Below are positions 6,324-19,623 of a DNA stretch of 21,194 bases, in pieces; the first letter of the stretch is position 1; each line of letters begins with the position of its first letter. The DNA is from a virus. Location of the stretch: IMG/VR virus record IMGVR_UViG_3300031607_000025, positions 1 through 21,194 of that record. One strand, written 5' to 3'. Both the position numbers and the translations under genes were made by a program. The notes beneath the pieces are model-generated. The model was given only the letters and a program-made list of their open reading frames with translations, was not told the origin of the DNA and did not search any database.

Positions 6324-7112
6324 TTATACTTGTTGATTGCTTAATATTACTCCTAAAAAATACTTTGCTTCACACGCGTGTGTGTAAGCTTGAGTTCTAG
6401 CGATTGCTGCTAGTCTTGGGTTTTCTGCTGTAAAACCCTTCATGTCTACAGTATCAATCCAATCAATTACTTCTTGCAGATCCGCGCGAAGCTCGATAGC
6501 TGCTTTAAAAGTGTCTAGTAACTTAAATCTATGGCATACTGCCGCAAAGTGAGTGCTTTCATCTTTTTCAGCAGTTTTAGGAATATCAGCTCTAGACTGA
6601 ATCTCTTTTTTCTCGTCTTTGCTGTACGGTGACTCTACAGATAATGCAGCAAGCATTTTACCAAGCCAAGCTTTAGCCAAAAAGATGCTATCGTCTGGAC
6701 TTGTATCAACTCTATCATGAACTTTAGCAAACTCAAATATTCTGTCTAAAGCCAAACGCTTTTCTTTGACCTCTTCAATGAATTTTTTTCTATTCAATGC
6801 TTCTTCAGGTTCAATACCTACCATACCAGGACTTTTAGCTTCTTCTTCAGATTCATCGTCAGAATCTGTAAGTTGTTTATCTTTAGACTCTGGCTCTTCA
6901 GCTTTTAAATTAGCTATCTCTTCTTTAGCTTTAGCTTCAGAAATTTCTTCCATACGATCACTAATTGCAGCATACACTGTTTTGCGATCACCTTCAGCTT
7001 GCTCTGCAACTGATAACGATTGTAAAAAATCGATACTTTTTGACTCTTTAAGTTTTACTTGAAACTCTTTTACTGTAAGATCTTTAAAATCTTCTACGCT
7101 TAATTTTGACAT
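6324..7112 (-). CDS. 262-aa protein: acidic linker plus helical C-terminal domain
   Basis: The N-terminal 60 residues are charged and helical. Residues 65-95 are a strongly acidic, low-complexity linker with DSDDESEEE. From about 143 onward a compact, likely all-helical domain follows: AKAWLGKMLAALS, HFAAVCHRFKLLDTFKAAIELRADLQEVIDWI, and a last helix NPRLAAIART...EAKYFLGVI. This last helix pattern (R-x-AAIART then a second hydrophobic stretch) reminds me of the helical-hairpin proteins annotated as Acb2/Tad1, small phage anti-CBASS or anti-Thoeris cyclic-nucleotide sponges. The similarity is from memory and weak. An alternative is a scaffold or virion protein, given that it sits directly before groEL with 1 nt between them. 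No membrane segment or metal site is seen. Confidence 0.75.
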   Translation of the reverse strand: MSKLSVEDFKDLTVKEFQVKLKESKSIDFLQSLSVAEQAEGDRKTVYAAISDRMEEISEAKAKEEIANLKAEEPESKDKQLTDSDDESEEEAKSPGMVGIEPEEALNRKKFIEEVKEKRLALDRIFEFAKVHDRVDTSPDDSIFLAKAWLGKMLAALSVESPYSKDEKKEIQSRADIPKTAEKDESTHFAAVCHRFKLLDTFKAAIELRADLQEVIDWIDTVDMKGFTAENPRLAAIARTQAYTHACEAKYFLGVILSNQQV

Positions 7113-7123
7113 TGTTTTTAATT

Positions 7124-7423
7124 TTAAATGTTAGTACTGTCCTCATCTGTTCTGATGAGGTATTTGTGCTTATCGTTTACAACTTCAAAATTTCCGATAT
7201 TTTTAATTTCAATTCTATCAGCTATATCTGACATGTAATAAAGCACATTACCTTCTACTTCCTGAGAAAGATTTTTCCCAGCCTTTCTTATAATACCTAC
7301 GTACACAGGCATAGTTTCTATAATGCGTGTGTCAAAGTTTTTTTCTTTTTTCTTAAAGTAATCTGGCAGTCTTTCTACCAGGTAATCTTCATCGTTAATA
7401 ATGATGCCATTTAGTTTTTCCAT
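7124..7423 (-). CDS. Unknown 99-aa protein
   Basis: Not recognised. It begins MEKLNGIIINDEDYLVERLPDYF and has alternating short hydrophobic and charged segments such as YVGIIRKAGK and IEIKNIGNFEVVNDKHKYLI, suggesting a small mixed alpha/beta fold. It has no Cys, signal peptide or membrane segment. The start is set by an A-rich leader, AATTAAAAACTAAATAAAC, which closely resembles those before the 65-aa gene at 8024 and terL. The minus strand upstream also has TATAAT at about 7442-7447, possibly a -10-like box. It belongs to the leftward operon, 11 nt before the 262-aa gene. Confidence 0.7.
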   Translation of the reverse strand: MEKLNGIIINDEDYLVERLPDYFKKKEKNFDTRIIETMPVYVGIIRKAGKNLSQEVEGNVLYYMSDIADRIEIKNIGNFEVVNDKHKYLIRTDEDSTNI

Positions 7424-7731: not shown

Positions 7732-7817
7732 TGCTTTTTTGATTTTATCCTCTGTTGATAAAAATTTTTTATTGCCTTATCAAATTGGCTCAACCCCTTT
7801 TTTGAATAATAAAACAT
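7728..7817 (-). CDS. 29-aa mini-protein coupled to the Cys-rich gene
   Basis: The frame encodes a basic peptide beginning MFYYSKKGLSQFDKAI and ending RIKSKKQ. Its ATG is 9 nt downstream of the 65-aa gene stop, and its TGA overlaps the ATG of the 55-aa gene (ATGA, 7728-7731). The composition, with Tyr/Phe near the start and a basic end, is compatible with an amphipathic peptide. It may be a real micro-protein or a leader that only delivers ribosomes to the next start. No family is recognised. Confidence 0.4.
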   Translation of the reverse strand: MFYYSKKGLSQFDKAIKNFYQQRIKSKKQ

Positions 7818-7826
7818 AGTTTCTGG

Positions 7827-8024
7827 TTAGTCTTTTAATTGCTTAAGTCTCTCCTTTAAACAAGTCCCGTAAGTTGTCATAGCATCAAATTGTACATTAA
7901 GCAAAGCCTGTTGCTCTTTTGAAATCTCCAAAAACTTAACAGAAGATTTAAACACAGAAAGCTTATGAGTCTTGTCTGCTAATTCTTCTTTCTCTTTCTC
8001 TAATCTTTTAATAAAATCTGACAT
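7827..8024 (-). CDS. 65-aa helical protein, unknown function
   Basis: The protein runs from MSDFIKRLEKEKEELADKTH to LKERLKQLKD and looks entirely helical, with heptad-like leucines at both ends. A small coiled-coil or helical hairpin is likely. A longer in-frame reading from an ATG at 8072 exists, but it would overlap the end of the 95-aa gene. The inner start at 8024 is preferred because it has the leader AATTAAAACTAAATATT, nearly identical to the one before the 99-aa gene. It lies 19 nt downstream of the 95-aa gene stop. Nothing indicates function. Confidence 0.68.
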   Translation of the reverse strand: MSDFIKRLEKEKEELADKTHKLSVFKSSVKFLEISKEQQALLNVQFDAMTTYGTCLKERLKQLKD

Positions 8025-8043: not shown

Positions 8044-8331
8044 TTACTGTGGTGGTGGCGGTGGCGGAACAAACTCCTGAGCCGGTGATGCCGGCACAGG
8101 TGGTGGCAATGGCACTTCAGGTGCTTTCAATAACTCATCCCTGCTCTCAACATTACTCCTTAAACTACTGAAGCCTACCTGATATATCACACATCTTACT
8201 CCATCCCTCCGCTTGTACAACTCCAAAGCATTCTTATACATCATCTGCTTAACATACACCTTATCCCACTTCCTAGACACTAAAGTAACTTGCTCCGTTT
8301 CATGTATGCCGACTTTCTTCTTCTTTGCCAT
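8044..8331 (-). CDS. 95-aa protein with proline-rich C-terminal tail
   Basis: First gene of the leftward operon. The first 65 residues are basic (MAKKKKVGIHETEQVTLVS, then KRRDGVRCVIYQVG) and could form a small alpha/beta domain. The last 30 residues are proline-rich and low in complexity, ending FVPPPPPPQ with PLPPPVPASP before it. Proline-rich tails often bind partners or act as flexible spacers on virion proteins. The DNA encoding the tail is a run of GGTGGTGGCGGTGGCGG on the minus strand. No relative is recognised. The start is preceded by AATATTATATTAGCACC. Confidence 0.68.
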   Translation of the reverse strand: MAKKKKVGIHETEQVTLVSRKWDKVYVKQMMYKNALELYKRRDGVRCVIYQVGFSSLRSNVESRDELLKAPEVPLPPPVPASPAQEFVPPPPPPQ

Positions 8332-8417
8332 GGTGCTAATATAATATTCTTTGCGACATTATGACGTAACACTCTCAAAAAAAATTCAAAAAATTTTCAG
8401 GATTTGTATGGACAGGT

Positions 8418-8470
8418 GGTTAATAGCCAATTAGCCCCGCCCTCTTTCCCGTTTTCGGGTACGGGGGGCT
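8418..8470. other. GC-rich structured islet in the divergent intergenic region
   Basis: The region 8332-8536 lies between the leftward and rightward units and holds no gene. Within it, GGTTAAT (8418-8424) can pair with ATTAGCC (8430-8436) with one G-U pair. AGCCCC (8433-8438) can instead pair with GGGGCT (8465-8470), enclosing a second stem CCCG-TTTT-CGGG (8448-8459). The first two pairings share bases 8433-8436 and exclude each other. The local GC content is far above the flanks. It could be a structured leader RNA, a switch, or a protein-binding or replication site. Confidence 0.45.
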
Positions 8471-8488
8471 CGTTGTAAAAACACAAAA

Positions 8489-8519
8489 AAGAGAGTCCGA
8501 TATCGTATCGGTATCTCTT
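8489..8519 (-). terminator. Hairpin terminator facing the leftward operon
   Basis: AAGAGA (8489-8494) pairs with TCTCTT (8514-8519), and CCGATA (8497-8502) with TATCGG (8506-8511), separated by a 2x2 internal loop and closed by TCG. Read on the minus strand, the stem is followed by TTTTTTGTGTTTTT, a good U tract. On the plus strand it would lie in the 5' leader of the 106-aa gene. It would stop leftward antisense transcripts from the island entering the 8331 operon. Confidence 0.6.
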
Positions 8520-8536
8520 AATCATTTAAATATAAC

Positions 8537-8857
8537 ATGATGAACAAGTCAATCAACGCGCAAGTACAAGCCTTAGCTTTAACTAAGAATCCACATGCTA
8601 TTAAACTATGGTGGAACAATTTGTCTACACCTCAGAAAGCTTTAGCTATTGCATCTATAGGTGCTTTATCATCAGCTTCAGTGTACTACTTTGTAGTTGC
8701 TGGTACTGTTTACACGACAACTCAAGTTGTAGCAGGCACAGTTTACACAGCTTTAGCTTGGGGAGCTCTAACTTATACTATTAGTAAGAGCGTCCTTGAC
8801 ACTAAATCAATATCAGACAACTACGAATCAGAAGAGGACTACGATATCAACGCGTAG
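8537..8857 (+). CDS. 106-aa membrane protein with an internal repeat
   Basis: Residues 1-33 are polar and include LWWNNLSTPQK. Two hydrophobic segments follow, about 35-58 and 62-84, enough for two membrane passes. The end (90-106) is acidic with YESEEDYDINA. VVAGTVYT occurs at 53-60 and again at 64-71, an 11-residue tandem duplication spanning the loop and start of the second segment. Small two-pass membrane proteins in phages include holins and superinfection-exclusion or immunity proteins. No motif chooses between them. It is the first gene of the rightward three-gene island. The 95-bp repeat begins 10 nt after its stop (TAG). Confidence 0.75.
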   Translation: MMNKSINAQVQALALTKNPHAIKLWWNNLSTPQKALAIASIGALSSASVYYFVVAGTVYTTTQVVAGTVYTALAWGALTYTISKSVLDTKSISDNYESEEDYDINA

Positions 8858-8867
8858 AAAACACATT

Positions 8868-8962
8868 AAAAAGCAAACACGTCTTAAAGAGTTTCTGGCG
8901 TGTCTAAACAAAGAAGCCTCTGTATCTATTAATCAAGTATAAACAAAGTCCTGGTAACAGGC
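8868..8962 (+). repeat. 95-bp direct repeat, copy 1 (intergenic leader)
   Basis: This block is identical, base for base, to 9376-9470, 508 bp away. It ends 9 nt before the ATG of the 130-aa gene, exactly as copy 2 ends 9 nt before the ATG of the 146-aa gene. It contains ACACG/CGTGT arms (8877-8881, 8899-8903), the sequence TTAATCAAGTATAAAC, and a CCTG-GTAA-CAGG hairpin (8950-8961) with a GNRA-type loop. A shared promoter or translation leader is likely. Confidence 0.95.
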
Positions 8963-8971
8963 GTATTTACT

Positions 8972-9364
8972 ATGAGCAGTCTATCTATTTCCGTTGACCT
9001 GTATAATGTCTCGCTGCATGAGGCAGCTAGTGAGCACATGGATATCCCTTATCAGATCTATGATGAGGTATTGTCAGAACCTTGCGTACGTTTGGCGTAC
9101 ATGCAAGAGCTCCACAATTGGGCTTTCTCCGATTGTCTTAGGAGCATCGGCCTTGTTGTCAAGGTCTATGCTCCTTCTCGTTTTACCAAGAGCCAGCTTA
9201 GTAGCTTCTATGAAATGGACTATTGCGAGCGCCAGATAAAACATATCTATAGCTGTATACATGCGGGCATTCATCCCGATGATCTTGCCATAGAGTGGCT
9301 TGCCTCCGTACGCAAGTACGACGACATTGAAGTATGGTTCAAGGGTGTCAAGCTGTTTCAATAG
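8972..9364 (+). CDS. Unknown 130-aa protein, GC-rich outlier
   Basis: Not recognised. It begins MSSLSISVDLYNVSLHEAAS and contains five cysteines scattered without an obvious metal-binding spacing. A central segment reads as helices, with YAPSRFTKSQLSSFYEMDYCERQIKHIY, and it ends EVWFKGVKLFQ. No membrane segment is seen. By hand count, three 60-base stretches of this gene are 45-52% G+C, well above its surroundings, and it uses codons such as GCC, CGC and TAC that are rarer nearby. This suggests acquisition from another source. An antisense open frame of 104 codons overlaps it but has no leader of its own. The gene sits between the two 95-bp repeats, so recombination between them would delete it cleanly. 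Confidence 0.75.
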   Translation: MSSLSISVDLYNVSLHEAASEHMDIPYQIYDEVLSEPCVRLAYMQELHNWAFSDCLRSIGLVVKVYAPSRFTKSQLSSFYEMDYCERQIKHIYSCIHAGIHPDDLAIEWLASVRKYDDIEVWFKGVKLFQ

Positions 9365-9375
9365 GCTTACAAACA

Positions 9376-9470
9376 AAAAAGCAAACACGTCTTAAAGAGT
9401 TTCTGGCGTGTCTAAACAAAGAAGCCTCTGTATCTATTAATCAAGTATAAACAAAGTCCTGGTAACAGGC
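9376..9470 (+). repeat. 95-bp direct repeat, copy 2 (intergenic leader)
   Basis: Perfect copy of 8868-8962. It starts 11 nt after the stop of the 130-aa gene and ends 9 nt before the next ATG, so it makes up nearly the whole intergenic space. The absence of any mismatch over 95 bp implies recent duplication, gene conversion, or strong selection on both copies. Confidence 0.95.
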
Positions 9471-9479
9471 ATCAAGATT

Positions 9480-9920
9480 ATGAGTAATTCAAGAACAAGA
9501 CGACCAAGAGTAAGAAGAAGAGTACATGTATTACATGACGACGCTGTTATCTACTCACTAGAAGAGACTAAGCGTAAGCCAAGAGTAACTGCCAAGACAT
9601 TGGTAACACTCAAGGACAACAAGCGACTGCTATCTAAACTCGGTTATACCGATGATGAGGTCTCTGCCATCAACACGCTGATACCTAAGCGTAAGATTTG
9701 GAGAATGTTTATCAAGTCTCTAAACAAAGGCAATGTATTCCACTACAGGAATAACAACCTCAGCGATGTGCAACATCTGGACACTACACCATTTAATAAG
9801 CCAGTGAACCTTGACAAGGCTTTCATAAGACGTCAATGGGAATCTGCTAAGAACTATGGTAAACGTGTAAATAGAAACACCCAAGCGGGAGCTCAGGTGT
9901 CTAGTCTTCAAGTTGCGTAG
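9480..9920 (+). CDS. Unknown 146-aa basic protein
   Basis: The N-terminus is extremely basic: MSNSRTRRPRVRRRVHVL has eight arginines in eighteen residues. Further basic patches occur at KRKPRVTAKT and IPKRKIWRMFIKSLNKG. The rest is polar with short helices such as NKRLLSKLGYTDDEVSAINTL. Such a composition points to nucleic-acid binding, but I see no known fold. There are no cysteines and no membrane segment. It is the last gene of the three-gene island, using the second 95-bp repeat as its leader. It ends (TAG) 65 bp before the end of the convergent winged-helix gene. That gap holds only weak inverted repeats and no clear terminator. Confidence 0.72.
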   Translation: MSNSRTRRPRVRRRVHVLHDDAVIYSLEETKRKPRVTAKTLVTLKDNKRLLSKLGYTDDEVSAINTLIPKRKIWRMFIKSLNKGNVFHYRNNNLSDVQHLDTTPFNKPVNLDKAFIRRQWESAKNYGKRVNRNTQAGAQVSSLQVA

Positions 9921-9985: not shown

Positions 9986-10381
9986 CTATCTGTCAAACTG
10001 ACCCATATTAACGGGAGTTTCTGTCTTTATTTTAAATAAACGATAGAAGCAATCTAGCTGCCTTCTCGTATTGTACCCGATCATAACAGGATTAACATAA
10101 TGATCCTGTCCATCGTGTACTATGAAGCCAGCCTTGACTAACTCCGATCGAGACCTATAGAATGCATGTTTGTGCTTGAAGCCGAAATCCTCGTGGTTAC
10201 CTGTAACGATGAGGTTTTCTACTTCTAAACCAGCACCTACCTGCTCTATAATATCTATCAATAAGTCATGAGACTTAGGACTAAGCTTACGCAAAGCTTT
10301 AATGCTACTCATAGGTAGCTCGAACTTTCGTACTCTAGTCTTATAGTCTCTGGAAATAAGTCTCTTTATCGTCTCTATCAT
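9986..10381 (-). CDS. RepL-like winged-helix protein (replication initiator or regulator)
   Basis: 131 aa. The core, about 25-100, reads as a winged helix: SSIKALRKLSPKSHDLLIDIIEQV as the first helices, then KHAFYRSRSELVKAGFIVHDGQDHYVNPVMI as recognition helix and wing. The last part has the pattern I associate with plasmid RepL/RepA-type winged-helix proteins (FYRAxxELxxKGFI...YxINP). Such proteins bind DNA repeats at origins or repress their own promoters. Upstream of its start lie a TAnnTTTG box and then five identical-arm palindromes, obvious candidate binding sites. Its N-terminus is basic (RLISRDYKTRVRKF). The leader CTTAACTAAATTAAATT precedes the ATG. Function as initiator versus repressor cannot be decided from sequence alone. 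Confidence 0.75.
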   Translation of the reverse strand: MIETIKRLISRDYKTRVRKFELPMSSIKALRKLSPKSHDLLIDIIEQVGAGLEVENLIVTGNHEDFGFKHKHAFYRSRSELVKAGFIVHDGQDHYVNPVMIGYNTRRQLDCFYRLFKIKTETPVNMGQFDR

Positions 10382-10431: not shown

Positions 10432-10469
10432 GAATTATATGTCAATAATCCTATCAAAATGTCGAATTA

Positions 10470-10612
10470 TGTAACAAAAGTTGTTACATAATGTGTAACA
10501 AAAGTTGTTACATAGTTGAAAAATGTGTAACAAAAGTTGTTACATTTTAACACTTTTCGTGTAACAAAAGTTGTTACATAGTTGAAAGCAGAATGTAACA
10601 AGAATTGTTACA
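10470..10612. repeat. Array of five 19-bp palindromes
   Basis: TGTAACAAAAGTTGTTACA occurs at 10470-10488, 10494-10512, 10526-10544 and 10560-10578, and TGTAACAAGAATTGTTACA at 10594-10612. All ten 8-bp arms are exact and only the 3-bp centre differs in the last copy. Start-to-start distances are 24, 32, 34 and 34 bp. GTTGAAA occurs in two spacers. Exact dyads at near-regular spacing indicate dimeric protein binding. The array lies between two divergent genes. Confidence 0.95.
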
Positions 10613-10694
10613 CTTTTTAGGCCTTTTTTGAGGCTTTATAGGGCTTTCGAGCGTTTTTGTCTACAATATGTATAGGGAAGCTTCTAAAAACATG

Positions 10695-13363: not shown

Positions 13364-13816
13364 ATGAAAACTTATAAAGCTAATATTCCAAATTATTCAA
13401 TCAAGAAGAATAAAACAGATATCAAGAAAGTCAAGATTACATTAAGCTCTGAAGCAAATAAATATATTCGTGAATTTTATTACGAAGATATTGACGTTTA
13501 TGAGAGTTTTTATTTACTGTGCTTAAATAACGCTAACAATACTATTGGCTACGTTAAAATTAGTCAAGGAGGAATTACATCTACAGTTGTGGACGTTAGA
13601 GTTGTATTAAAATATGCAATAGAATCTCTAGCTACATCTGTAATACTTGCACACAATCATCCAAGCGGAACGCTTAAGCCAAGTCAAGCAGACAAAAATA
13701 TTACTGACAAGCTAAATAAAGCTTTGAGTTATCACGATATTAAACTGCTTGATCATTTGATATTAGCTCCAGATCCAAACTCTTATTTAAGCTTTGCAGA
13801 TGAAGGCCTGGTTTAG
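13364..13816 (+). CDS. RadC-like JAMM/MPN-domain protein
   Basis: 150 aa, essentially a single domain. The JAMM zinc-site pattern is complete: E47 in VYESFYLL, H97 and H99 in LAHNHPSGT, and D110 exactly ten residues after H99, with S101 in the usual position. The domain matches the C-terminal part of RadC proteins, and the N-terminal HhH region of full-length RadC is absent. RadC-type domains are common on mobile elements and phages of Bacteroidota. Their role in DNA metabolism is unsettled, and related JAMM proteins are metalloproteases. The ATG follows the membrane-protein stop with no spacing. The stop is 92 nt before the next gene, which has its own promoter-like box. Confidence 0.9.
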   Translation: MKTYKANIPNYSIKKNKTDIKKVKITLSSEANKYIREFYYEDIDVYESFYLLCLNNANNTIGYVKISQGGITSTVVDVRVVLKYAIESLATSVILAHNHPSGTLKPSQADKNITDKLNKALSYHDIKLLDHLILAPDPNSYLSFADEGLV

Positions 13817-14330: not shown

Positions 14331-14747
14331 ATGGGAAATAAATCAGTATTTCATTCAGTAATTAACAATAGATTATTTGAATTGTACGCAGAAGGAAATT
14401 CTTATTCTACAATTAAAGAAGCAATCTCAGACGAATTTCAAGTTGACTTTACAAATAAAGAACTTGGAGAAAAAATGGGAGAGATTAAAAAACAAATGGG
14501 CTGTGCTACTCAATTCCAAATGGGATATGAGTATGCTAAAACCAAGTTTTCAGTTATATTAGAACAGACAGAAACTAAATGTCAAAAGCAATTAATTAAA
14601 GAAAAAGAGCAAAGCTATTTTAAAGGCCATTACGAATGTAAAGGATCTTTAGAGCATCGACACAAGCAAATAGTAAATAGATATATAGCAATATTTATTA
14701 TTATTTATTTAGTGCTTAACATTACTTATTACGCAATTTTTAATTAA
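14331..14747 (+). CDS. 138-aa protein with a C-terminal membrane anchor
   Basis: The N-terminal 50 residues (LFELYAEGNSYSTIKEAISDEF...NKELGEKMGEIKK) look like a helix-turn-helix-style helical domain. The middle is charged with four cysteines (58, 84, 103 and one nearby context only). The last 20 residues (about 118-135, YIAIFIIIYLVLNITYYAIF) form one hydrophobic helix at the extreme end, so this would be a tail-anchored protein with the soluble part in the cytoplasm. A DNA-binding domain tied to the membrane could position phage DNA, but that is inference. The gene starts right after a terminator. The next gene starts 8 nt after its stop with an AACAAGGTT leader. Confidence 0.68.
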   Translation: MGNKSVFHSVINNRLFELYAEGNSYSTIKEAISDEFQVDFTNKELGEKMGEIKKQMGCATQFQMGYEYAKTKFSVILEQTETKCQKQLIKEKEQSYFKGHYECKGSLEHRHKQIVNRYIAIFIIIYLVLNITYYAIFN

Positions 14748-14755
14748 ACAAGGTT

Positions 14756-15748
14756 ATGAGAAATATCAAGAATATTATTGACGAGATCACAAAGGAGATT
14801 CAAGAAACATCTTACAAGCTGTTTTGGGATTACAATTCAGAATTAAGTATAGATCAAATCTCTAAAATAATTAGAGGGAATTTATGTGAAGTGCAAGCAG
14901 AAATATTTGATTTAAATATTGATTCTTCATTTGATGGCCAAAGACAATTAAGATCTGAAATAGTTGAAAAATACATAGATAAATTATCAAAATTTATGGT
15001 TGATACTTCGAATGTTTCAGAGGTTATTGATCAATTAGAAGATATGGGATATGAAATAGAATATCCTATGTTAGATGAAAATTTAGAAGAGCTCATAGAG
15101 CTTACACAAAAAGTTGTTGCAAATTACTACACAGGCTATACAATGGCCTCTGGTAGTTGGAATTGGACAGAAGCTGAAATTAAATCAGAAAGAATTAAAA
15201 TTAAAAAACACCTCAACATATTTGATAATTCAAATTATGATGAGGCTATTGATTCTATGATTGAAAATGCTACACATGGTGGCGAATTACTTGTGTATTT
15301 TGAATTAGAAATCAAAGATTTTATAGATACTGATGAGGTTTTAAGCATACAGTTTAAAAACTATCAGATTGGAATTATTGATCATGTTCAAGGAAGCGGA
15401 GATATACTTGAAACAGATATTCAAAGTACACTTATTGTTCCTTTTAATTTAGATAATCTTTATCTAGAAAAGGAGATTAAATACAACTGGACGTATTCTA
15501 TTGCTGGCATGGTATCTAATTGGGCTGACAGCACTAAAGTAGAACTTACATCTGCTAATGTAGGAGATATAAGAAAGAGTGTTAATGCAGAGATTCAGCA
15601 AGCTGAAGCAAAATACAATCAGACTTACAAAGAAGGAGGTTGTACGCTTGGAGATATGGATATTTACAGACATCGAAACGTGACCTATATAAACAATTAT
15701 CCTTGTGGAAATAAGTGTAAGGATTGTGGTAATTTCTGGATAGATTAA
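14756..15748 (+). CDS. Unknown 330-aa acidic protein with a Cys-rich tail
   Basis: Not recognised. It is highly acidic, with long helices through residues 1-120 (IIDEITKEIQETSYKLFW, QLRSEIVEKYIDKLSKF). A mixed region follows, and a strand-rich part at about 180-245 includes GELLVYFELEIKDFID. The C-terminal tail has CGNKCKDCGNFW with cysteines at 317, 321 and 324, and nearby histidine and tyrosines. Three close cysteines could make a partial metal site or a surface for a partner. The acidic character recalls DNA-mimic proteins but that is only a composition argument. The leader is AACAAGGTT. Confidence 0.75.
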   Translation: MRNIKNIIDEITKEIQETSYKLFWDYNSELSIDQISKIIRGNLCEVQAEIFDLNIDSSFDGQRQLRSEIVEKYIDKLSKFMVDTSNVSEVIDQLEDMGYEIEYPMLDENLEELIELTQKVVANYYTGYTMASGSWNWTEAEIKSERIKIKKHLNIFDNSNYDEAIDSMIENATHGGELLVYFELEIKDFIDTDEVLSIQFKNYQIGIIDHVQGSGDILETDIQSTLIVPFNLDNLYLEKEIKYNWTYSIAGMVSNWADSTKVELTSANVGDIRKSVNAEIQQAEAKYNQTYKEGGCTLGDMDIYRHRNVTYINNYPCGNKCKDCGNFWID

Positions 15749-17031: not shown

Positions 17032-19623
17032 ATGTCTAATATTGCTCCAAATAAAAAAGAGCAGTTTTTGTTTGATTTTCACGAAGAGGAAATGACCTCT
17101 AAAAAAACAGAAAACGTTATCGATGTTCCTTACATAAAAGGAGATCTTGATAACATCAAAGAAATGCTTTCTGAATTATACGATAGTCAACAAGAAGATG
17201 TTCTACGTATTGAAGAGCGTTTCAGAGTAGGTAAAGGTTATTTATGTACAAATGGTACTGGTACTGGCAAAACATTTGTTGGTCTTGGTACTGTTAAAAG
17301 ATTCTGTGCTAAAGGCTGCAGAAACATATTGATCATTACTCCTACTGAAACGAAATGTCTCGATTGGATAGAAGAAGCTAAGCATCTTAACTTAAATCTA
17401 TATATGCTTCAAAGTATTGAAGATAGTGGATTTGATATAAGAGTAACTACTTATGCAAACTTTTATCAGAACGAGACTTTAGACAATGTAGTATGGGATT
17501 TAATTATTTATGATGAATCGCATTATTTAAATCAAAATTCTAAGGGTCAAGCAACGTCTTATCTGCAAAAACATAAAGTAGTTTCAAACCTGCCTTCTGC
17601 AGTAAAAGAGAAAGCTTATGACATTATTGGAGATCGACCTGTATATAATCCAGCTAAAGATGATTATGAATTATATCATTGGCAATTTGATGCTTGGAAG
17701 AATCAGATGAAAACTTTCACTTATGATACTGTAGTAAAAACTAAAGTATTGTTTTTGTCTGCTACTCCATTTGCTTATCATAAATCAATATTGTATGCTG
17801 ATGGTGCTTTATTTGATATTGAAGAAACAATAGAAAAGGAAGAACCTTCAGGAAGATATAATGAAGCTTCTGGTTTTAATAAGTTTCTAACGGAACATTT
17901 TGGATATAGGATGAGGTACAACAAATGTACTATTCCAGAGACTGGTGTAGATCAAAGTTTGTTAGAACGAAACTTTTTTGAAACTCATGTTGAGAAAGGC
18001 ATAATGTCAACTAGAATATTAGAGCTTAAGCATGATTATTCAAGAGAATTTGTGCTTGTAAGTTCTAATTTAGGAAACTTTATCAACAGCGGCATAGAGA
18101 TGTGGTACAACAAGTATGTGTACGAAAAGTACAAATACATGGAACGATTGATCATCAAAAAGAAATACAATTACATTTATGTCAATCAGCTTTTAGAAGC
18201 AATAAAAGCTAAGGAAATACTTGACAGAATCCAGCAGCATTTAGACTTGGGGAGAAAAGTAGTTGTGTTTCATAGTTATAATCATTCTACTGTAGAGCAT
18301 CCATTTAGATTTGATGCAGATAAACTGACAAAAAAAGACGACAAAGGATATGTTCAACCATTAAAAAGAGAAATAAATGAGTGGTACAGTGAATATCCAG
18401 AATATGCTAATCTTTCTTTAGAAGGTTTAAATAATTGCCGAGCAACAATTAAAGAACGGTTTCCAGATATGCTAGAGTTTAATGGAACGATTAGCAAAAA
18501 GAAAAAGAAGAAGAACAAAGAATTGTTTAACGATGATAATTCTGGATATGATTTAATTGTTATACAGTCTAAAGCAGGTAAAGAAGGCATCTCTTTGCAT
18601 GACAATCAAGACGGTAAGCCCAGAGTATTAATTAATCTTTCATTGCCAGTAGCGCCTACTGAAGCAATTCAGACAGAAGGTAGAATATACAGAAGCGGAC
18701 TAAAGAGTAACGCGATGTTTGAATACCCTGTGATACATACAAACTTTGAAAAGATAGCATTTGCAACTAAAATTGCTGAACGTGCTAAGACTGCAGAGAA
18801 TCTTGCAATGGGTAACCTTGCTAGAGATTTAGAGACAGCGTTTAAAGAAGGTTATGTGAATGCTACAATGGATAAGCCTAATCTTCAACAAGGTGTAGGC
18901 GGTAAAGAAAGTGATAGAGCTTTAATAGAAATATCAGATTTTGATAAAGCAAAGACCTATTATTTTTCTAGAGGTAAAAAGAATGCCAAAAATAAATCGG
19001 CAGAAGGCAAAGATTATTTTGCTACTCCTGAACCATTAGGTTATAAAATGGTTCAATGGCTAGATCCTCAACCAGACGAAGATGGTTTAGAACCTTCAGT
19101 TGGCCACGGTGCAATCGGAAGATGGTTCCCAGGTACTACAAGTAATGTATATGTGGAGCCGAGCTTAGAGTTGTTTTCTCAAATGACTATTAATTGTGTA
19201 GGCAGACACGAGAATATGGAATTTGAAGAATTGCCATTGGTAAACAAGTTTGATTTTATAGCTATGAATCCACCGTTTGGAAAGAATAGCAGACAAGCTG
19301 CTGAACATATTCAAAAAGCTTTATTGCATATGAGGCAAAGATCTAGGAAAGGAGCAAGGTTACTTGCTATTGTTCCTAATGGAGCTTCAATGTCTAACAA
19401 TTTAATCAAGCTTATGGAGCATAAAAAATTTGCTAATTTTAGGCTTACTGGAGAAATGCTTTTGCCTGCTGTTACTTTTAATCGTGCAGGCACTGGTGTT
19501 ATGTGTAAGATAATTCGCATCGAACATGTAAACACAGGAAATGACTATTGTCGTGAAATTGATTTGACTCATTGTAAAGACATTGGGGAATTTTTTGATG
19601 AAATAGAACACATCGATTTTTAA
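17032..19623 (+). CDS. Helicase-methyltransferase fusion protein
   Basis: 863 aa. The N-terminal superfamily 2 helicase has Walker A GTGTGKT (75-81), DEAD-type box DESH (161-164), SAT (243-245), GKEGISLHD (516-524) and motif VI Q-x-EGRIYRSG (547-556). The C-terminal domain is an N6-adenine-type DNA methyltransferase: FATP near 663-666, SAM-binding LEPSVGHGAIGRW (686-698), and catalytic NPPF (746-749). A Lys-rich run lies at 489-496. ATP-driven movement along DNA coupled to base methylation is the obvious reading. I see no nuclease motif, so self-protection or anti-restriction is more likely than restriction. P1 DarB also joins these activities but is far longer and, as I recall, in the opposite order. 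Modification regulating transcription or packaging is also possible. Confidence 0.92.
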   Translation: MSNIAPNKKEQFLFDFHEEEMTSKKTENVIDVPYIKGDLDNIKEMLSELYDSQQEDVLRIEERFRVGKGYLCTNGTGTGKTFVGLGTVKRFCAKGCRNILIITPTETKCLDWIEEAKHLNLNLYMLQSIEDSGFDIRVTTYANFYQNETLDNVVWDLIIYDESHYLNQNSKGQATSYLQKHKVVSNLPSAVKEKAYDIIGDRPVYNPAKDDYELYHWQFDAWKNQMKTFTYDTVVKTKVLFLSATPFAYHKSILYADGALFDIEETIEKEEPSGRYNEASGFNKFLTEHFGYRMRYNKCTIPETGVDQSLLERNFFETHVEKGIMSTRILELKHDYSREFVLVSSNLGNFINSGIEMWYNKYVYEKYKYMERLIIKKKYNYIYVNQLLEAIKAKEILDRIQQHLDLGRKVVVFHSYNHSTVEHPFRFDADKLTKKDDKGYVQPLKREINEWYSEYPEYANLSLEGLNNCRATIKERFPDMLEFNGTISKKKKKKNKELFNDDNSGYDLIVIQSKAGKEGISLHDNQDGKPRVLINLSLPVAPTEAIQTEGRIYRSGLKSNAMFEYPVIHTNFEKIAFATKIAERAKTAENLAMGNLARDLETAFKEGYVNATMDKPNLQQGVGGKESDRALIEISDFDKAKTYYFSRGKKNAKNKSAEGKDYFATPEPLGYKMVQWLDPQPDEDGLEPSVGHGAIGRWFPGTTSNVYVEPSLELFSQMTINCVGRHENMEFEELPLVNKFDFIAMNPPFGKNSRQAAEHIQKALLHMRQRSRKGARLLAIVPNGASMSNNLIKLMEHKKFANFRLTGEMLLPAVTFNRAGTGVMCKIIRIEHVNTGNDYCREIDLTHCKDIGEFFDEIEHIDF

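Follow-up and report, generated by a model that had tools for sequence, protein, structure and literature searches.

We consider it likely that a gene for a 130-aa protein is an accessory insertion in a small-gene operon of a crAss-like phage, where two copies of the leader of the neighbouring 146-aa gene flank it, and that it is gained and lost by recombination. The evidence is a perfect 95-bp repeat (hereafter R, with copies R1 and R2) on both sides of the gene, together with a natural contig in which the gene and one repeat are missing exactly as recombination between the copies would leave it.

The repeat, the operon and the slot in related phages

The window, i.e., the whole stretch of 21,194 nucleotides that was analysed, is an IMG/VR virus record (IMGVR_UViG_3300031607_000025), an environmental contig of an uncultured crAss-like phage. 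Its terminase large subunit, which adjoins a GroEL-like chaperonin with a helicase/methyltransferase-like protein further right, matched many crAss-like records with 24-26% identity over 81-84% (E down to 4e-30). A related terminase is the criterion for Crassvirales, and judged by this sequence the phage is a distant lineage of that group. The relatives used for comparison were G008/L019, G011/L023 and G015/L030 (about 82.5 kb each) and L020 (12 kb); their terminase identities lie at 66-82%.

R1 and R2 are the maximal identical stretch (95 of 95 bases, 508 bp from start to start), and a perfect match of this length rules out a chance origin. R1 starts 10 nt past the stop codon of the 106-aa ORF and R2 starts 11 nt past that of the 130-aa ORF, and both stop 9 nt short of an ATG, so that R almost fills the two intergenic gaps (95 of 114 and 95 of 115 bases). 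The coordinates and the layout agreed with a preliminary description of the locus. No other repeat near R in size was found in a scan of the window. Both gaps belong to one small plus-strand operon, which is bounded by a divergent conserved leader at its start and by a minus-strand regulator-like gene (9986-10381) past its end (Table 1). The first operon gene encodes a protein that, judged by eye, is probably membrane-spanning, and the last one possibly has homologs in L030 and L020 as well.

Table 1. Features of the repeat locus and corresponding sites in related phages
Feature	Position	Strand	Remarks
Leader/promoter region of operon	window 8400-8536	+	CCCC...GGGG hairpin, word AAAAAAGAGAGTCCG; conserved in four relatives, promoter role inferred
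106-aa protein, first operon gene	window 8537-8857	+	homolog at same place in G011
R1 (repeat copy 1), 95 bp	window 8868-8962	+	5′ of 130-aa gene; identical to 9376-9470
130-aa accessory gene	window 8972-9364	+	between R1 and R2; codon-usage outlier, no relatives found
R2 (repeat copy 2), 95 bp	window 9376-9470	+	5′ of 146-aa gene; identical to R1
146-aa basic protein, last operon gene	window 9480-9920	+	54% identical homolog in L019; intact in both alleles
Operon-leader site	L019 2545-2700	-
Operon-leader site	L030 2783-2930	-
Operon-leader site	L020 3095-3260	-
Operon-leader site	L046 12316-12433	-
Palindrome array	window 10463-10620
Palindrome array	L019 784-880
Palindrome array	L030 1237-1331
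Palindrome array	L020 1320-1416

The set of genes between the leader and the last gene is different in each relative phage. Hence, the slot is variable across the whole group, but the relatives lack R, and R is therefore not the general cause of this variability. Several other features were observed around the operon. In five related phages the operon leader carries GGTGGTTAATAG, the hairpin and an invariant AAAAGAGAGTCCG; it has no Rfam match and may be a promoter specific to the phage, or an RNA element. Arrays of 3-5 short palindromic units (TGTAACAAAAGTTGTTACA in the window, other words in each relative) lie 5′ of the homologs of the 131-aa gene at 9986-10381, and look like putative operators or origin iterons diverging along with their binding protein. 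The leaders of two adjacent small genes of L020 (2394-2445 and 2722-2785, minus strand; TCTAAAGYCCGAYGCCAAGG) are roughly similar to each other, and could stem from an older R-type repeat whose copies have diverged. On the left of the operon, a 95-aa minus-strand gene (window 8044-8331) has a codon-usage z of -6.8 and a third-position G of 0.42, and its protein has a proline-rich tail (PLPPPVPASPAQEFVPPPPPPQ).

One-repeat and two-repeat forms of the locus

When IMG/VR was searched with two different parts of R, the same three contigs were found both times, each 99.9% identical to the window. Two of them (3300031211_000352 and 3300031392_000015) share the R-gene-R layout with the window. The third (3300031222_000261) carries a single R and an intact 146-aa gene but lacks the 130-aa gene, which is thus present in three contigs and absent in one. 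This contig opens with 32 nt identical to the left flank of R1, and past R the sequence is that of the right flank of R2; i.e., the junction is the exact product of R1 x R2 recombination, with 508 bp lost. The preliminary description had predicted such a loss of repeat plus gene with the downstream reading frame intact, and this natural one-repeat allele, with its exact deletion, is what is expected of a repeat-bracketed gene.

The single-repeat allele sits at the head of a 20-kb contig that carries private SNPs elsewhere, and hence represents a separate haplotype of the same virus. Exactly 127 nt lie between the end of the contig and the base at which the two forms part. JGI uses metaSPAdes for its assemblies, with k-mers of up to 127 (PMC10604447; PMC9710083), and a contig end one k-mer before the divergence points to a branching node in a k=127 assembly graph. 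Both alleles therefore probably coexist in sample 3300031222, if it was assembled with k=127. Since R is shorter than this k, the single-repeat junction needs reads crossing R. The single-copy form is known from one contig only, with R at its very end behind the 32-nt left flank, and its junction is possibly a PCR chimera carrying this deletion.

Other variation was also observed between near-identical contigs. Their SNPs cluster at window positions 6621-7334, 14430-14981 and 18150-18949, a pattern that recombination with slightly diverged strains would be expected to leave. At 7808-8000, two contigs that are 99.3% identical next door (3300005929_000242 and 3300025352_000019) have different sequence where most of the 65-aa gene 7827-8024 would be, which is another small-gene replacement near the R locus.

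Origin of the 130-aa gene, role of R and rival explanations

The codon usage of the 130-aa gene (z -10.6, third-position A of 0.12) was the most deviant among the 28 window genes tested; the neighbouring genes of the operon had z values of -2.0 and -5.9. No relatives of the gene or its protein were found in any collection searched, bacterial genomes included, and the gene was absent from all relatives with the same slot. A structure prediction without alignment gave a mean pLDDT of 36 and was unusable. The deviant codon usage and the lack of detectable relatives make the gene probably a recent insert. In addition, the matching gene of L019 and L030 has a start context (TTCAAGATT-ATG) that is similar to the spacer 3′ of R2 (ATCAAGATT-ATG) but not to the spacer 3′ of R1. 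Together with the codon usage and the lack of relatives, this likeness suggests that R is native to the 146-aa gene, with R2 probably the native copy of the leader, that the 130-aa gene probably arrived later and that the single-copy form is probably the empty site. No outgroup carries R, so the repeats themselves do not show whether the gene was inserted or deleted.

Our preferred reading is that homologous recombination or strand annealing between R1 and R2 would remove 508 bp (the gene and one repeat), and that the same process in reverse, with a molecule that carries the gene plus its leader, would add them back. As the leader supplies the sequence just 5′ of each start codon, the remaining genes would keep their translation start either way. 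The operon would probably be transcribed from its conserved leader at 8400-8536, rather than from promoters within the repeats. A search of five related records for recombination proteins of the ERF and RecT families gave no match; a RadC-like protein, which may or may not take part, is encoded at 13364-13816.

Signals were sought within R itself. Its predicted minimum-energy fold consists of a 7-bp stem that includes ACACG/CGTGT and closes a 13-nt loop, plus the CCTG-GTAA-CAGG hairpin, the two stems pointed out in the preliminary description. This fold was no more stable than those of shuffled sequences (z -0.6 to -0.1), and the stems are therefore no evidence for a selected RNA structure. 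A scan against Rfam gave no match in R at gathering thresholds, only chance-level matches outside it. Neither a sigma-70-like nor a Bacteroidota-like promoter (TTTG/TAnnTTTG) was found on the plus strand of R, although R may carry a phage-specific promoter. No terminator was found either; the 4-bp GTAA hairpin and the 7-bp stem lack a T run. Hence, the earlier proposal of R as a shared promoter was not borne out. A translation-leader role is plausible, judged from position only, and R probably serves the gene behind it as an untranslated start region. Two further candidates were discarded. The word TAATCAAGTWTAAA, which occurs in R and also 5′ of the 11729 gene, gave 4 matches against 2.4 expected, which is not significant. 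A 38-aa ORF through R2 (9334-9450) has a by-eye likeness to a small conserved protein of the relatives (motif EAIAWL); as a coding remnant it was rejected, its Smith-Waterman scores being no better than those of shuffles.

Neither the near-identical 50-kb contig G007 nor the four more distant relatives contained R, and no copy outside this locus was found in the about 73 kb of the ~82-kb genome that is covered by the window, the G002/G003 extensions and G007 (an estimate from alignments). Its core had no exact match in the GTDB genomes (one exact-pattern scan), and a distant blastn search of the region against phage records gave no match. The genes behind R were always those of the 130-aa and 146-aa proteins. 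These results bear in two directions on the earlier suggestion that R lets genes be swapped generally as cassettes: the copy number of R does vary, as expected, but R occurs at one locus only and before the same genes only, and a general swap element is thus not what was found.

In a simpler scenario, the 95-bp leader was duplicated in front of an existing gene by an error of replication or repair, and the contig with one repeat is a deletion product, either rare or technical. That R was found only twice in all the sequence searched, with no other gene behind it and without a structural or promoter signal, would fit such a local duplication. We nevertheless regard it as unlikely, as the bracketed gene is a codon-usage outlier, which points to joint insertion of gene and repeat, and as the single-copy allele heads a long contig with its own SNPs. 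There is a slight chance that R is a dedicated landing sequence, with a 508-bp gene-plus-leader circle exchanged at a high rate at the slot, in which case members of the population would toggle accessory genes on and off while the operon is kept intact. Still less probable is a PeSL-like role, in which R, as a promoter plus stem-loop, would be a mobile regulatory cassette under selection for swapping accessory genes in a fixed slot. R is intergenic, its copies are identical, the gene content of the slot varies among relatives, and two adjacent genes of L020 follow leaders that are roughly alike (AAAGYCCGAYGCCAAGG; a weak and tentative likeness); however, R carries no recognised promoter or terminator, occurs in none of the four more distant relatives though their slots vary too, and has only ever bracketed one gene. 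Finally, site-specific or transposon-type mobility (integron cassette, target-site duplication, att sites or a diversity-generating retroelement) is very improbable despite the cassette look of a gene with flanking repeats, given that R has no attC core sites (GTTRRRY/RYYYAAC, zero on both strands), that none of the window proteins tested could be recognised as a recombinase, transposase or reverse transcriptase, that 95 bp far exceeds the length of a target-site duplication, and that no terminal inverted repeats were found in the repeat scan of the window.

With the gain and loss of the 130-aa gene by recombination between leader copies as the favoured explanation, a small foreign-looking gene has been caught both present and absent in natural populations, with exact repeats explaining the switch. 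The locus illustrates how phages gain and shed ORFans in small-gene operons, and it can be tracked through metagenomes by read mapping, with no need of phage culture.

Comparison with known systems

PeSL elements of T4-like phages were reportedly described by Arbiol et al. in 2010 and Comeau et al. in 2014 (both cited in PMC4503421). A PeSL consists of an early promoter and a stem-loop, and such elements are densely packed in regions where genes are shuffled. R is like them in that short intergenic repeats beside accessory genes give homology for gain, loss and exchange, and unlike them in that it has no recognisable promoter or terminator and is found in two copies at one locus, not in many copies beside different genes. 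The SAS elements of cluster K mycobacteriophages are 13 bp long, are present in 11-19 copies per genome and are conserved across the cluster (PMC3203893). R shares with SAS/ESAS the placement just before phage start codons, and some SAS/ESAS have an inverted repeat (PMC3203893), but R is 95 bp long and occurs in two copies in one virus population; the fixed distance that characterizes SAS/ESAS, here 9 nt, holds for R at two genes and at none elsewhere in the searched sequence. R also differs from an integron gene cassette by its lack of attC core sites. In cyanophage S-PM2, a spontaneous deletion of 9.5 kb in an ORFan region was described in a paper whose text mentions no repeats (PMC4503421). 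ORFan genes are lost in part of the phage population in both cases, whereas here the loss is of 508 bp and occurs between perfect repeats. The best reading is that, although R itself is not a PeSL, the locus resembles in its effect the PeSL shuffling of T4.
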